A model generated the notes under the pieces. That model was not told the origin of the DNA, made no database searches, and worked only from the letters and a program-made list of their open reading frames with translations. A DNA stretch of 64,000 bases from assembly GCF_900142915.1 (NCBI RefSeq), contig NZ_FRCM01000001.1, forward strand, positions 1,116,001 to 1,180,000, in the 5' to 3' direction. Each line of letters starts with the position of its first letter. The first letter of the stretch is position 1. Of the stretch, positions 3,539-58,494 are shown piece after piece. Origin of the DNA: Mucilaginibacter sp. OK098 (GTDB lineage Bacteria; Bacteroidota; Bacteroidia; Sphingobacteriales; Sphingobacteriaceae). A program made the translations under genes and the position numbers.

Positions 3539-4111
3539 TCACTCCACCCTACTCACCCCATAAATTTTCACTGGCTTAACCAAATATTGCGAGATATCTT
3601 TTTGCAATTGAATTAGCTTCACAACATCCATCCCTTTGGTTACCCTGCCAAATGCGGCAAAACCCTGCCCATCGGGATTTCGGGCGCCGCCATAATCTAA
3701 AGCAGGCTGGTTATTGATGCAGATAAAAAACTGGCTTGTTGCGGAGTTTGGGCCGCTGCGCGCCATTGAGAGTGTGCCGTTTTTGTGCAGCAGGCCCGTA
3801 TATTTGGTAGTTTCAATTTTTATACTGTCCAGGCTCAAACTGTCAGGTACATTGCCACCCTGGATCACCTGGATCTTTACTTTTCGTGTGGCTTCGTTAG
3901 CGGGCGTACACACCCTGAAAAAGCTGCTGCCGGTGTACAGTTTCTTGTCGACATAACGCATAAAGTTTGCTACCGTGATTGGCGCTTTGGTCGGGTAAAG
4001 CTCAATAGCTATATCGCCCTGCGAGGTTTTAATAAGGCAGTGTACAGGTGGCTGGGCAAAAGTGGCTAATGGGATAACTATCGTTAAACAAAGAATGACT
4101 ATTTTTTTCAT
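3539..4111 (-). CDS. Exported cyclophilin-type peptidyl-prolyl isomerase
   Basis: Catalyses cis-trans isomerisation of X-Pro bonds, probably in the periplasm. A signal peptide covers residues 1-19 (MKKIVILCLTIVIPLATFAQ). A single cyclophilin domain follows, with the conserved elements SSFFRV, IQGGN, GTLSMARSGPNSATSQFFI and FGRVTKGMDVV. The Arg of FFRV and the QFFI strand are the expected active-site parts. The length of 190 residues is normal for a minimal secreted cyclophilin. The ATG at 4111 is followed directly by the signal peptide, which supports this start. It is a single-gene unit, convergent with nothing obvious downstream. Confidence 0.92.
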   Translation of the reverse strand: MKKIVILCLTIVIPLATFAQPPVHCLIKTSQGDIAIELYPTKAPITVANFMRYVDKKLYTGSSFFRVCTPANEATRKVKIQVIQGGNVPDSLSLDSIKIETTKYTGLLHKNGTLSMARSGPNSATSQFFICINNQPALDYGGARNPDGQGFAAFGRVTKGMDVVKLIQLQKDISQYLVKPVKIYGVSRVE

Positions 4112-4258
4112 ATTGCGTTTGCATCAAAATATTTAGAAAGTTACTACTTCTACAGCTTAGTTGACGGTTATTTCAATCTTTTTGAAACAACGATCTGGCA
4201 ATTCTATCTATAAATCCAACCTCTTACCCTTTCTTTTTAAAAAAATTGTAAAAAAATA

Positions 4259-4304
4259 TTGCGTAGTTAAATAACTACATATATATTTGTAGTCAAATAA
4301 CTAC
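4259..4304 (+). promoter_or_regulatory. Promoter with twin operators for the first ArsR module
   Basis: A Bacteroidota-type promoter is visible: TTG at 4259-4261, a 20-bp spacer, and TATATTTG at 4282-4289. Two near-palindromes, GTAGTTAAATAACTAC (4263-4278) and GTAGTCAAATAACTAC (4289-4304), flank the -7 box with centres 26 bp apart. The start codon is only 18 bp after the -7 box. Autorepression by the downstream ArsR-type protein is inferred. Confidence 0.75.
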
Positions 4305-23314: not shown

Positions 23315-24124
23315 ATGCAACTGTCTCCGTCGAATGAATTGAAATCCATCGTTAAGCACTATCTGTTTGTTGATAGTAACGATGTCGAACATTCGTGCTA
23401 TCGTTTTTTTTCTGATGGGAATCCAGGCATTGTGTTTCATTTTGATGCGCCGTTAATCCAGAATAACAATACAAACACATCTGAACAATTACAGCCAAGG
23501 AGTTTTATTTACGGGCAGATCACGCATTATAATAACATAACTCTAAATGGCAAGCTATCAATGCTGGTGGTGGTTCTGCAGCCATTTGGTATCAATGCAC
23601 TTTTAGGAGTTGCAACCTCCGAACTTAATAACGCTATTGTTGAACTTACCGATGTTTTCAAACAAGACGCTTATGATCTTGAGGATCAGCTTCTCGAGGC
23701 AACTTCTATAAATCAGCTTATCTCATTTTTTGAGCTGTTCCTGGTGAAAAGATTAGCAGCTGTTAAGCAGGTGGATCAAAATTTAAAAAATGCTGTAAAC
23801 ATCATTTACCAGAACCGTGGCATGGTTTCGATAGAAGATCTGATCAAAATCCTTCCCGTTACTGAGCGGCAATTGGAGCGTAAATTCAACCATTATATCG
23901 GCTCCTCACCAAAAAAATTTGCTGATACAATAAGATTTCAATTCTTTTTAAAATCCCTTCAAAATATTCCTTCCGATAAAAGCCTTACTGAAATTATTTA
24001 CGCCAATGGATTTTATGATCAGGCCCATTTGAACAAGTATTTTAAAATAAATACCGGTTTAACACCCATGCAATACAAGTCGGGCTATAACCCGTCCGTC
24101 ATAAATTTCATGCGGGTCCAGTAA
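23315..24124 (+). CDS. AraC-family transcriptional regulator
   Basis: A 269-residue protein. Residues 1-150 resemble the DUF6597-type N-terminal domain (HYLFVDSNDVEHSCYRFFSDG and SFIYGQITHYNNI). Residues ~160-260 contain the AraC HTH pair, with ILPVTERQLERKFNHYIGSSPKKF for the first helix set and IIYANGFYDQAHLNKYFKINTGLTP for the second. It is expressed just before the nitrilase-family gene (70-bp gap to its ATG), which makes that gene a plausible target. Confidence 0.9.
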   Translation: MQLSPSNELKSIVKHYLFVDSNDVEHSCYRFFSDGNPGIVFHFDAPLIQNNNTNTSEQLQPRSFIYGQITHYNNITLNGKLSMLVVVLQPFGINALLGVATSELNNAIVELTDVFKQDAYDLEDQLLEATSINQLISFFELFLVKRLAAVKQVDQNLKNAVNIIYQNRGMVSIEDLIKILPVTERQLERKFNHYIGSSPKKFADTIRFQFFLKSLQNIPSDKSLTEIIYANGFYDQAHLNKYFKINTGLTPMQYKSGYNPSVINFMRVQ

Positions 24125-54586: not shown

Positions 54587-54617
54587 TTGCTTTTAGTAAA
54601 AACTATTTCCATATTTG
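54587..54617 (+). promoter_or_regulatory. Predicted trp leader promoter
   Basis: TTG at 54587-54589, a 20-bp spacer and CATATTTG at 54610-54617, one base off the TATATTTG box seen at the three ArsR promoters. The leader ATG is 10 bp further on. Confidence 0.6.
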
Positions 54618-54626
54618 TGGCACAAA

Positions 54627-54680
54627 ATGATAGTAAAAGCATTAAATAACAATTGGTGGTGGCTTAACGAGAAATCGTAA
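54627..54680 (+). CDS. trpL: trp leader peptide, 17 residues with Trp-Trp-Trp
   Basis: MIVKALNNNWWWLNEKS: the ATG at 54627 leads to TGG TGG TGG at 54654-54662 and a TAA at 54678-54680. Three consecutive Trp codons in so short an ORF are the classical sensor of charged tRNA-Trp. A terminator 34 bp downstream and trpD 168 bp downstream complete the arrangement. The region 54681-54688 can pair with 54718-54725 as an antiterminator, which a ribosome at the stop codon would cover. The peptide itself need not have a function. No longer product in this frame is possible. Confidence 0.8.
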   Translation: MIVKALNNNWWWLNEKS

Positions 54681-54713
54681 GGCAATTCCATTTTTTGTTT
54701 TTTCAAAATATTC

Positions 54714-54747
54714 AAAAGGGTTGCCATAACATGGCAACCCTTTTTTT
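54714..54747 (+). terminator. trp attenuator terminator
   Basis: AAAAGGGTTGCCAT / ATGGCAACCCTTTT with an AAC loop and a T-run. It lies between two divergent genes, where no ordinary terminator is needed, and between the leader ORF and trpD. The left arm overlaps the proposed antiterminator at 54718-54725. Confidence 0.85.
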
Positions 54748-54764
54748 ATGCCTCGCCCCCCGGC

Positions 54765-54838
54765 CCCCTAAAGAGGGAGTTATAAACAGGATGGAGAGGA
54801 AAACAATAAATTAACCATTAAAAATTCCCCTTTAGGGG
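54765..54838 (+). promoter_or_regulatory. Inverted repeat in front of trpD
   Basis: CCCCTAAAG (54765-54773) and CTTTAGGGG (54830-54838) are exact complements, and CCCCTTTAGGGG (54827-54838) folds locally. The second arm ends 10 bp before the trpD ATG and might mask it. The significance is uncertain. Confidence 0.4.
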
Positions 54839-54848
54839 TTTGGGGCTT

Positions 54849-55838
54849 ATGAAGAAAATACTTAATCACCTTTTTGAACACAAAACATTTACCCGTGAGC
54901 AGTCCAAAGAAATTTTGACCGCAATAGCACAGGGTAAATATAATAACTCGCAAATGGCAGCCTTTATGACGGCCTATTGCATGCGCAGCATTACCGTTAA
55001 TGAACTGGAAGGCTTCCGCGATGCTATGCTTGAACTTTGTTTACCCATAGATCTTGAAACAGACCAGGTAATTGACCTTTGCGGCACCGGCGGCGACGGC
55101 AAGGACACTTTTAACATATCCACCCTGGCCTCTTTTGTTGTTGCAGGCGCTGGTTATAAAGTGGCCAAACATGGCAATTATGGTGTTTCATCGGGCTGCG
55201 GATCATCAAACGTTATGGAGTTTTTAGGCTGTACATTTACTAATGATCCGGATAAGCTAAAAACCGACATCGATAAAGCCAATATCTGCTTTTTACATGC
55301 TCCACTTTTTCACCCGGCAATGAAGACCGTTGCCCCTATCCGCAGAGAGCTCGGGGTAAAAACGTTTTTCAATATGTTAGGGCCTTTGGTTAACCCGGCT
55401 AAGCCCCAAAATCAGCTGGTAGGTGTGTTTAATTTGGAACTTGCCAGGGTTTATGCTTACCTGTATCAAAAATCGGATGTTAAATACACTATTGTAAATG
55501 CGCTGGAAGGCTATGATGAAGTATCACTGACCTGTGATTTTAAAACATTTTCGGGCGCAGGCGAGAAGATAAACAGTATTGAAGCATTGGGTTTTGAAAA
55601 ACTTGATCCGAAAGATATTTTAGGTGGCAGCACGATCAGCGAATCGGCAGATATTTTTGTTGAGGTTCTTAATAACCGGGCTACAGCAGCGCAAAGCAAC
55701 GTGGTTTTATGTAATGCAGCATTGGCCATCAATACAATAAATCCTCAAAAAAGCTTTGCTGATTGTTTTTACGAGGCAGAGGGATCGTTAATTGGTAAAA
55801 AGGCACTAAAAAGCTTTGAAACCTTACTGGCTAACTAA
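54849..55838 (+). CDS. trpD: Anthranilate phosphoribosyltransferase TrpD
   Basis: A 329-residue enzyme of the nucleoside phosphorylase III fold. It transfers phosphoribose from PRPP to anthranilate, the second step of tryptophan synthesis. The PRPP/Mg motif CGTGGDGKDTFNIST (~77-91), KHGNYGVSSGCGSSNVME (~104-121) and LGPLVNPA are present. The TTG at 54840 gives three extra residues; the ATG at 54849 (MKKILNHLFEHKTF) is the usual start. It is the first structural gene after the WWW leader and terminator, and trpF follows one base after its stop. Confidence 0.96.
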   Translation: MKKILNHLFEHKTFTREQSKEILTAIAQGKYNNSQMAAFMTAYCMRSITVNELEGFRDAMLELCLPIDLETDQVIDLCGTGGDGKDTFNISTLASFVVAGAGYKVAKHGNYGVSSGCGSSNVMEFLGCTFTNDPDKLKTDIDKANICFLHAPLFHPAMKTVAPIRRELGVKTFFNMLGPLVNPAKPQNQLVGVFNLELARVYAYLYQKSDVKYTIVNALEGYDEVSLTCDFKTFSGAGEKINSIEALGFEKLDPKDILGGSTISESADIFVEVLNNRATAAQSNVVLCNAALAINTINPQKSFADCFYEAEGSLIGKKALKSFETLLAN

Positions 55839-55839
55839 A

Positions 55840-56466
55840 ATGAAGATAAAAGTTTGCGGTTTACGTGATCCGGAAAATATTAAAGCTGTTGCAGCTTTAA
55901 ATCCCGATTATATGGGTTTTATATTTTATAACGGATCGCCAAGATTTGTTGATGAATTACCGGTTGAAGCGCTTGAAACCATTCCTGCTACAATAAATAA
56001 AACGGCAGTTTTTGTAAATGAAAGCGCCGAAACCATTAATAAGCTGATTGATAAATATAATTTTGATTTTATACAACTGCATGGTGATGAAAGTCCGGAT
56101 TTTTGCAATTCTTTCAGGGATAAAGCGATAGTAATCAAAGCATTTGGTATAAATAATGATTTTGATTTTAAACTACTGGATAAGTACAAAAAAAAGGTAG
56201 ACTTGTTTTTGTTTGATACTAAAACAGAAAATCATGGCGGCTCCGGTATTACCTTCGACTGGAACATCCTTGATAAATATGAATTAGAGATCCCTTTCTT
56301 TTTAAGCGGGGGAATAAGCCCGGATAATATAGAAGAAGTAAAATATATCAATCATCCCAAATTCTACGGCGTTGATCTAAACAGCAAATTTGAATTATCG
56401 CCGGGACTAAAAAGCATTGAGAAATTAGAAAAAGCATTCAATACCATTAAACAAAGCGCAGAATAA
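55840..56466 (+). CDS. trpF: Phosphoribosylanthranilate isomerase TrpF
   Basis: A 208-residue TIM barrel that isomerises PRA to Cd[13 protein letters not shown] at the N-terminus supplies the catalytic Cys (~5), and the Asp in [17 protein letters not shown] (~129) is the general acid. The phosphate-binding loops GGISPDN and GVDLNSKFE near the end complete the site. The ATG at 55840 is chosen over the TTG at 55816, one base after the trpD stop (gene order trpD-trpF). The usual trpC between them is absent. It overlaps trpB by one base. Confidence 0.95.
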
Positions 56467-57647
56467 TGAAATACGGAGTTAATGAACAAGGGTATTACGG
56501 CGATTTTGGCGGAGCATATATCCCCGAAATGCTGTATCCTAATGTGGAAGAATTACGCCAGCAATATTTAACCATCATTAATGATGATTCGTTTAAGGCG
56601 GAGTTTAACCAGCTTTTGAAAGATTATGTTGGCAGGCCATCTCCTTTATATTATGCCAAAAGATATTCAGAAAAATATGGCGCCAATATATTTTTCAAAC
56701 GCGAGGATCTGAATCATACAGGATCGCACAAGATCAATAATGCTATCGGGCAAATCCTTTTAGCAAAGCGGCTTAATAAAAAGCGCATTATTGCCGAAAC
56801 CGGAGCCGGTCAGCATGGCGTGGCAACCGCTACCGTTTGTGCCCTTATGGGGATAGAGTGCGTAGTTTATATGGGCGAGATCGATATGGCAAGGCAGGCC
56901 CCTAATGTTTCACGCATGAAAATGCTTGGCGCGAAGGTTGTTCCGGCAACATCGGGCAGTAAAACATTAAAAGATGCCACCAACGAGGCGTTGCGTGACT
57001 GGATTGGTAACCCGGTTGATACACATTATATCATTGGTTCAGTAGTAGGCCCTTATCCTTACCCGGATATGGTGGCGCGTTTTCAGTCTATCATCTCATT
57101 AGAAACAAAAAAACAACTATTTGAGCACACAGGTAAGGAATTACCGGAATACGTAATGGCCTGTGTAGGCGGCGGCAGCAATGCCATGGGGATGTTCTAT
57201 CATTTCCTGGATGATGAATCGGTAAAATTAGTTGCTGTTGAAGCGGCAGGCAAGGGAGTTGACAGCGGCCATTCAGCAGCTACCACATTTTTAGGCAAAG
57301 AAGGGGTTTTACACGGCAGCCGTACCATACTTATGCAGACCGATGACGGACAGGTAGTTGAGCCCTATTCTATTTCCGCAGGTTTAGACTACCCGGGGAT
57401 AGGCCCGCAGCATGCACATTTATACAAAATTAACCGGGCACAATATGTAAGTGTTACTGATGATGAAGCCTTACAGGCCGGCTTGCTTTGCTGCCAATTA
57501 GAGGGCATCATCCCCGCAATTGAAACGGCACACGCACTTGCCCAGCTCGAAAAAATGAAATTTAGCCCTACTGATAATGTGGTAGTCTGCATTTCGGGCC
57601 GTGGGGATAAGGATTTGGATACGTATATTAAATATTTTGGATATTAA
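56466..57647 (+). CDS. trpB: Tryptophan synthase beta subunit TrpB
   Basis: A 393-residue PLP enzyme. The Schiff-base Lys is in [13 protein letters not shown] (~84), the phosphate loop in [13 protein letters not shown] (~227-239), and [11 protein letters not shown] (~107-117) follows the family. It condenses indole with serine and forms the alpha2beta2 complex with TrpA. The length is normal. The ATG overlaps the trpF TAA by one base (TAATG). The gap to trpA is 79 bp and carries a 17-bp inverted repeat, which is longer than the other spacings in this operon. Confidence 0.97.
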
Positions 57648-57726: not shown

Positions 57727-58494
57727 ATGAACCGCCTCAATAAACTTTTCAATACAAAAAAGGATAACCTGTTATCCATCTATTATACTGCAGGTTATCC
57801 TGAACTTAATACTACCCTTGATATTGCCGAAGCTTTGGAAAAGGCCGGGGTTGATTTCCTGGAAGTTGGCTTCCCCTACTCTGACCCCGTAGCTGATGGC
57901 CCGACCATTCAGCATAGCTCTGAAAGAGCTTTGGAAAATGGCATGACCCTTAATTTGTTGTTTGAGCAATTGGCTGATCTGCGGAAAAGGGTTACTATCC
58001 CCATCCTGTTAATGGGTTATGCTAACCCGATGATCCAGTATGGTGTAGAACGTTTTTGCAAAAAGGCTGCTGAGGTTGGTGTTGACGGTGTTATTGTGCC
58101 CGATTTGCCCATGTATGAATATGAGAGTTTGTATGCCGGTTATTTTAAAGCAAATAACCTGAGTAATATATTCCTGGTAACCCCACAAACGTCTGAAGAA
58201 CGCATCCGCAAGATTGATGAATTGAGTAACAGCTTTATTTATTTACTTTCCTCGTCGTCAATAACCGGCGGCAACTTACAGGTATCCGTAAATATTGAGG
58301 ATTATTATAAAAGGATCAAAGCCATGCAGTTAAAAAATCCTGCTATTATTGGTTTTGGAATCTCGGATAATAAATCATTTACTAAAGCCTGTGAATACGC
58401 CGCAGGTGCTATTGTGGGGAGTGCATTTGTTAAGTTGTTGGGAACGGAAGATTATATGGAGAAGATCCCCGGGTTTGTGAAAACGATCAGGTAA
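57727..58494 (+). CDS. trpA: Tryptophan synthase alpha subunit TrpA
   Basis: A 255-residue TIM barrel that cleaves indole-3-glycerol phosphate to indole and GAP. The catalytic Glu and Asp are in LEVGFPYSDPVADGPTIQ (~46-63). GVDGVIVPDLPMYE (~118-131) and FGISDNKSF, then GAIVGSAFVKLL, are the phosphate loops. This is the last enzyme of the operon. The ATG at 57727 is right after repeat words. The 33-bp gap to the beta-helix gene's frame does not necessarily mean co-transcription. Confidence 0.96.
   Translation: MNRLNKLFNTKKDNLLSIYYTAGYPELNTTLDIAEALEKAGVDFLEVGFPYSDPVADGPTIQHSSERALENGMTLNLLFEQLADLRKRVTIPILLMGYANPMIQYGVERFCKKAAEVGVDGVIVPDLPMYEYESLYAGYFKANNLSNIFLVTPQTSEERIRKIDELSNSFIYLLSSSSITGGNLQVSVNIEDYYKRIKAMQLKNPAIIGFGISDNKSFTKACEYAAGAIVGSAFVKLLGTEDYMEKIPGFVKTIR

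Follow-up and report, generated by a model that had tools for sequence, protein, structure and literature searches.

Known attenuators of tryptophan genes

Leader RNAs of tryptophan genes in the Bacteroidetes are represented by the Bacteroid-trp motif (Rfam RF01692), which is given in Table 1 of Weinberg et al. (2010; PMC2864571) and is mentioned ahead of the trp operon of Flavobacterium psychrophilum, a bacterium of another family, for which the passage concerned mentions one element (PMC6414381). The main text of an attenuator survey of the same year contains neither "bacteroid" nor "tryptophan" (PMC2965389), and its authors state there that, to their knowledge, leader-peptide systems had been shown only in Proteobacteria and Actinobacteria, ermC aside (PMC2965389). 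A peak of short leader genes is described for the Bacteroidetes in passages that name no trp attenuator in this phylum (PMC4833913). A search of the full-text literature, in which few subscription journals are covered, returned no paper on a trp operon of Mucilaginibacter or of taxa with names beginning in Sphingobacteri-, and none on leader-peptide attenuation of prephenate dehydratase in Bacteroidetes.

The E. coli trp leader (trpL) has tandem Trp codons, the alternative pairings 1:2, 2:3 and 3:4, and a stop codon placed such that the terminating ribosome covers region 2. The locus described here is alike in all of these. In Pseudomonas, trpE and trpGDC each have an attenuator of their own, which sets a precedent for two such elements on a divided pathway. 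The present organism likewise has two separate predicted Trp attenuators and a split trp pathway; it belongs to another phylum, and the genes are divided as trpE-G-C and trpD-F-B-A.

The trpD leader and its operon

The locus lies in a window of 64,000 nucleotides of Mucilaginibacter DNA, the whole stretch that was analyzed, and the following features were assigned in window coordinates.

54587-54617, plus strand: presumed Bacteroidetes-type promoter, with TTG at 54587-54589, N20 and CATATTTG at 54610-54617 (-33 and -7 elements)
54627-54680, plus strand: leader peptide ORF of 17 codons, ATG at 54627, TAA at 54678-54680, predicted peptide MIVKALNNNWWWLNEKS
54654-54662, plus strand: Trp codons TGG TGG TGG, read from the sequence
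54655-54692, plus strand: hairpin 1:2, Trp codons on the 5' side, GGCAATTCC on the 3' side, ACGA/TCGT at the tip
54681-54688, plus strand: region 2, 5' strand of the predicted antiterminator, GGCAATTC, complementary to 54718-54725
54718-54725, plus strand: region 3, GGGTTGCC, common to antiterminator and terminator
54714-54747, plus strand: predicted intrinsic terminator 3:4, 14-bp stem, loop AAC, T run at 54741-54747
54755-54846, no strand assigned: inverted-repeat (REP-like) element between the terminator and trpD, limits drawn by eye, outside the attenuator
54849-55838, plus strand: trpD, anthranilate phosphoribosyltransferase, ATG at 54849 (TIGR01245, 297 bits, cut-off 199)
55840-56466, plus strand: trpF, phosphoribosylanthranilate isomerase (Pfam PRAI, 138 bits, cut-off 22.7; NCBIfam matches under their cut-offs)
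56466-57647, plus strand: trpB (TIGR00263, above cut-off)
57727-58494, plus strand: trpA (TIGR00262, above cut-off)

An earlier note on this DNA had proposed a ribosome-mediated attenuator of the E. coli type from a TTG-N20 element, a 17-codon ORF with three successive TGG codons, a strong terminator and an 8-bp pairing that would compete with it. When the site was re-read base by base, every one of these elements was found where the note had placed it. Taken with the comparisons below, the leader makes it very probable that trpD-F-B-A is controlled by a ribosome-mediated trp attenuator; the reading that the note had put forward is supported by genus-wide conservation of the Trp codons and their frame, of the hairpin, of the strand that competes with the terminator, and of the terminator itself.

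The TTG-N20-CATATTTG arrangement, which we take to be a Bacteroidetes promoter, has a -7 element that is invariant or nearly so across 59 loci of the genus (alignment A1). The leader differs from trpL in having three Trp codons rather than two, in a start codon 9 nt past the -7 element with no Shine-Dalgarno sequence seen ahead of the ORF, and in preceding trpD of a split pathway. Across the 59 loci the distance from the -7 element to the start codon ranged from 7 to 19 nt (median 11); in trpE leaders, described below, it was 5-12 nt (58 loci). Transcription usually starts about 6-7 nt downstream of the -7 element, and Bacteroidetes ribosomes do not depend on Shine-Dalgarno pairing. With that start spacing, the 5' untranslated stretch of the trpD leader would be short and in some species nearly absent. 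Given the distances found for both leaders, some of the leader mRNAs may be nearly leaderless.

Three successive TGG codons occur in two of the 733 short ATG ORFs of the window, and by itself such a run therefore says little. A second such ORF, on the plus strand at window position 23547, is probably due to chance. For the trpD leader a chance run was rejected, because the leader is kept at 59 of 59 TrpD loci of the genus. Over the whole genome, a loose TGGTGG ORF pattern gave 1233 matches against 1067 with the pattern reversed.

RNA structures and predicted mechanism

The terminator arms are AAAAGGGTTGCCAT (54714-54727) and ATGGCAACCCTTTT (54731-54744). A simple terminator scan reported the hairpin at 54714-54744 on the minus strand only; the plus-strand terminator was probably missed because its T residues were counted into the stem. 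Pairing of GGCAATTC with GGGTTGCC gives 8 base pairs, two of them G-U, exactly as the earlier note had described. The stretch 54616-54850, which includes the inverted-repeat element 3' of the terminator, gave a folding energy of -77.3 kcal/mol (shuffled sequences: -55.1, sd 4.7; z -4.7), more stable than any of 200 shuffles.

The genus alignment of trpD leaders (59 sequences, 58 distinct) was compared with slid and shuffled controls; the structures were derived from the same alignments, and some advantage over slid controls is therefore to be expected. Hairpin 1:2 was paired in 97.5% of cells (58 distinct sequences) and terminator 3:4 in 99.4%, with three terminator pairs changed on both sides. 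The two combined were paired in 98.4% of cells against at most 57.1% in slid controls, and contained four double-change pairs against 0.4 in shuffles. Pairing 2:3 was present in 97.0% of cells against 20.0-60.5% in slid controls, with no excess over column shuffles (97.1%, 439 of 500 shuffles as high) and no double change within the genus alignment. Region 3 is constant, so covariation gives no positive proof of 2:3; such constancy is what two competing partners would impose. Locus by locus, all eight pairs of 2:3 were present in 46 of 59 leaders, seven in 12 and five in one. An ATATT motif before region 3 (window about 54708-54712; A1 columns about 115-119) is also conserved in trpD leaders.

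The alternative-state folding that the note had called for was run with ribosome-covered bases barred from pairing and the size of the footprint assumed. The minimum-energy structure without a ribosome includes hairpin 1:2, which covers the Trp codons, together with 3:4. When any one of the three Trp codons occupied the A site and the polymerase stood at the end of region 3, 2:3 was the best structure; with the ribosome at the stop codon 2:3 was gone. Before region 4 is made, the folding thus agrees with the note's proposal that 2:3 competes with the terminator and that a ribosome at the stop blocks it. Once region 4 was present, the terminator was the minimum-energy state at every ribosome position, a genuine weak point in the case made from thermodynamics. 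Because the terminator wins by energy at that stage, antitermination must be kinetic.

These states suggest the following mechanism. When charged tRNA-Trp is plentiful, the ribosome would reach the stop at 54678-54680 and cover region 2, and the terminator would form. When tRNA-Trp is uncharged, the ribosome would stall at 54654-54662 and open hairpin 1:2; the freed region 2 would pair with region 3 before region 4 exists, and the polymerase would continue into trpD. Each part of a trpL-type system is present: a tandem-Trp leader, 1:2, a competing 2:3 that is weaker outside the genus, and 3:4.

Conservation in Mucilaginibacter and the family

TrpD was found in 59 of the 61 genus genomes that were searched; two had none at the thresholds used, and a second TrpD fragment in one genome (G052) was left out of the count. 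The leader ORF, the hairpin, the region-2 strand and the terminator, with its 14-bp stem in the window, were present in all 59 upstream regions. The Trp run was WWW in 55 and WW in four (L028, L039, L042 and L068), and the start codon was scored by script as ATG in 57 and GTG in two. The usual peptide has the form M-...-LNNNWWWLNE/D with variable ends, and the stop usually stands right behind the GAG or GAT codon or two codons later at TCG-TAA. Conservation of frame and Trp codons in 59 of 59 loci suggests that the leader is translated.

The same peptides bear on the best-surviving alternative, in which leader translation acts through coupling or Rho, or the peptide itself is functional, and the terminator is secondary. 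An Asn-rich stretch before the Trp codons and Leu-Asn-Glu/Asp after them, found in most peptides of the genus, would suit a functional peptide; against this, the flanking residues vary by genus (WWWHNA, WWWHYE, WWWLNE) while the Trp codons and the hairpin persist, and the recurring residues overlap the RNA structure. We consider this explanation very unlikely.

Next in order is the possibility that the leader ORF is incidental, the terminator is an upstream or constitutive one, and trpD has its own promoter within 54747-54849. With about 100 nt, the spacer of this genome is long enough to house one, but the only promoter-like match of 11 in 12 positions nearby (54915-54944) sits inside trpD and is unable to drive it, all 59 loci keep the frame of the leader and its Trp codons, and in 18 of 59 relatives the terminator-trpD spacer is 5-14 nt, leaving no room for a promoter. 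The chance that we give this reading is smaller again. No better placed is another sensor, whether a T-box, a TRAP-type protein or a tryptophan-binding RNA, acting on the same terminator: such systems regulate trp operons in other organisms, but conserved in-frame TGG runs are unexpected under T-box or TRAP-type sensing, and T-box and TRAP control were rejected for lack of any model or gene match genome-wide (T-box RF00230 and TRAP/TrpBP, mtrB, PF02081, each 0 matches in the whole genome at E <= 0.001; no T-box in the window at gathering score). The Rfam scan of the window at gathering scores returned two tRNAs only.

The spacer itself varies. It was 80-141 nt in 32 of 59 loci, and the long spacers often contain inverted repeats of several types (CCCCTAAAGGGG, CCTCCGCC, GTCATTTCGAACG, AGGATTTAACG), so that the stretch between terminator and trpD looks like an insertion hot spot. 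Inverted repeats were scripted in 19 of 59 spacers, a count from which the window's own element was missed. Over the window the pattern CCCYTNAAGRGGG gave 8 matches where 11.8 were expected, and so shows no enrichment.

The upstream comparison that the earlier note had suggested also makes it likely that ribosome-mediated attenuation of trpD reaches beyond the genus, as the TGG-run leader and terminator were conserved in other genera of the family. A model of the trpD leader (R1) gave matches at E <= 0.05 in 107 of the 121 genomes of the family (14 had none), and it matched 140 of 151 genomes of the order, every listed genome being of the same family; both tallies need caution, since a number of weak R1 matches appear to be plain terminators, and R1 is thus unspecific below about 50 bits. 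Among 70 R1 loci examined, 61 preceded trpD-trpF, with 13 of them inside the genus and 48 spread over 17 further genera; one ran off a contig end and eight had no trp gene. Five of these eight comprised two with Phe/Tyr leaders (L184 and L205) and three that are apparently plain terminators. Three of the trpD loci lack TGGTGG and have TGG TTA TGG (L169, L183) or TGG CGC TGG (L177) in its place. In 14 further regions, 13 R1 matches of at most 51 bits (L273-L285) were apparently plain terminators without a Trp-rich leader, and the remaining one (L286), matched by the trpE-leader model R2, was a trpE leader.

A set of named loci, the best 80 of 583 relatives, overlaps in species with the unnamed set and comprises 76 loci from outside Tenacibaculum and four from Tenacibaculum. 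The closest named loci were Mucilaginibacter with at most 88% identity (best 80 of 583, own species possibly excluded). A leader was found in 75 of the 76; 69 of these were scripted with a terminator, and one further terminator (L343) was imperfect by eye. At four loci (L350, L351, L357, L387) leader and terminator begin 298-498 nt upstream, and at L366 the leader start is lost at a contig end. The one locus among the 76 with no leader at its trpD (L392) comes from a MAG. The four Tenacibaculum loci had no leader at trpD and had trpG upstream (three also trpE), as expected for an operon that is undivided. Leader and terminator thus appear, by comparison of upstream sequences, to be conserved in most of the family sampled.

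By eye, in 23 loci, the post-Trp hairpin differs on both sides between genera, being ACGA/TCGT in Mucilaginibacter, ACGC/GCGT in many Pedobacter and CACAAC/GTTGTG in Sphingobacterium. Pairing 2:3 is reduced to GGCAA/TTGCC (5 bp) in Sphingobacterium and in one Pedobacter group. A crude complementarity test was scored for 70 named loci, and only 27 did better than 95% of shuffles; several Mucilaginibacter loci failed it.

Relation to the Bacteroid-trp family

Two features of RF01692, a short ORF with tandem Trp codons before trp genes and a long hairpin over and after those codons, were both found at the trpD leader. The model matched the site at 40.5 bits (E 0.0029 over 601 bases), under its cut-off of 49, with several non-standard pairs in the aligned hairpin; over the whole genome the site was the best match (E 0.008). 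Phylum, Trp leader, long hairpin, terminator (in the loci read) and downstream trp genes are shared, and a stretch UCGUAAGG of the site was seen by eye to recur in L237, L238 and L244. The site is formally outside RF01692 and, by anatomy and place, is probably a divergent relative. Other Rfam models tried at the site, including GibS, the L20 leader and the Phe leader (minus strand), stayed below their cut-offs.

Among 198 genomes of the class, RF01692 matched 16 at E <= 0.01 and eight above its cut-off, in a search whose filters lose weak matches. Thirteen of the 14 loci outside the family precede trpE or trpB-trpE and one (L251) had no trp gene in view, whereas the two loci in this family precede trpD. 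An attenuator of this kind is already known in related bacteria, and the site is ordinary in kind. What the present analysis adds beyond the first reading is the trpE attenuator, the Phe/Tyr attenuator and the family-wide extent.

A probable second attenuator before trpE

The earlier note had remarked that the leader precedes trpD rather than trpE. The leader does precede trpD; the contrast with trpE is incomplete, since the trpE operon has a Trp leader and terminator of its own. The genes trpE, trpG and trpC of this genome are grouped at another place, behind a leader encoding MININHTNSWWHQLILAAG and a terminator ACCCGGCGAA/TTCGCTGGGT with a T run.

4073-4300 of locus L078 (G000:C12), minus strand: trpE leader, WW leader ORF and terminator

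Each of the 58 complete TrpE loci found in the genus (within L078-L136) has a WW leader ORF and a terminator; one partial locus at a contig end (G046) was excluded, and two of 61 genomes had no TrpE at the thresholds used. Gene order after trpE was examined in this genome alone. The post-Trp hairpin covaries (CCAA/TTGG, CCTT/AAGG, CCAT/ATGG, CCAG/CTGG, CCGT/ACGG). The whole structure had 43 double-change cells, 37 of them in this hairpin, against 12.0 in shuffles, counts that lean towards the hairpin because RNAalifold returned only the terminator and a small stem from the trpE alignment (A2) and the post-Trp hairpin was supplied by hand. An automatic parse of the hairpin picked wrong arms in a few rows (L089, L093, L119, L123). 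GCCGG in region 2 and CCGGC in region 3 occur together in 50 of 58 leaders. When the trpE leader of this genome was folded with the ribosome at the stop, region 3 paired with the Trp-codon stretch instead of staying free, and the outcome is less clean than for trpD. A box resembling CAATTGTAAACCTA between regions 2 and 3 (A2 columns about 117-132, e.g., L079) is strongly conserved in the genus and takes part in none of the pairings tested.

No Rfam family reached its cut-off on the trpE leader of this genome (best E 0.03). The trpE-leader model (R2) gave matches at E <= 0.001 in 79 of the 121 genomes of the family, a tally that cross-matches to trpD leaders may inflate; the window's own trpD leader was matched at E 7.8e-4, which suggests common descent of the two leaders. 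The 30 R2 loci examined all stand ahead of trpE, and 17 belong to other genera. The trp pathway is split in the family, with the trpE operon under a separate putative Trp attenuator of the same logic, and both halves would then answer the same signal.

A third leader before prephenate dehydratase

The two R1 side matches with leaders rich in Phe/Tyr codons were found to lie ahead of a gene for prephenate dehydratase (Pfam PDT, 183 bits), which at L205 is followed by a DAHP synthase/chorismate mutase gene. A prephenate dehydratase match was obtained in 58 of the 61 genus genomes, the exceptions being G040, G054 and G058. A leader with 7-9 Phe/Tyr codons (e.g., MKFNSAYFYGYYFYFTSKSRD) was found in 28 of 30 genus loci examined (L287-L316); the script found none in L295 and L299. 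In the 28 loci pairing 2:3 has 9-10 bp (GCCGGGACT:AGTCCCGGC and similar) and the stem of the 3:4 terminator 10-13 bp. The leader of this genome is among them, and its locus (L291) gave no Rfam match above cut-off.

About 1350-1470 of locus L291 (G000:C7): Phe/Tyr leader

Implications for Sphingobacteriaceae

We lean towards a joint reading in which the aromatic pathways of Sphingobacteriaceae carry at least three ribosome-mediated attenuators, on trpD-F-B-A, the trpE operon and prephenate dehydratase, and in which the leader mRNAs can be nearly leaderless; in it, the trpE attenuator is outside any Rfam family and has two Trp codons in the genus and three in some others. A textbook attenuation architecture is retained through most of a Bacteroidetes family, and where the trp genes are divided into two operons, an attenuator goes with each half. 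Two of the leaders, those of trpE and prephenate dehydratase, could represent new RNA families. The trpD and trpE leaders form a natural pair for asking how the response depends on the number of Trp codons and the strength of the antiterminator; if the joint reading is true, differences in these two features could cause the set points of the two halves of the trp pathway to differ.
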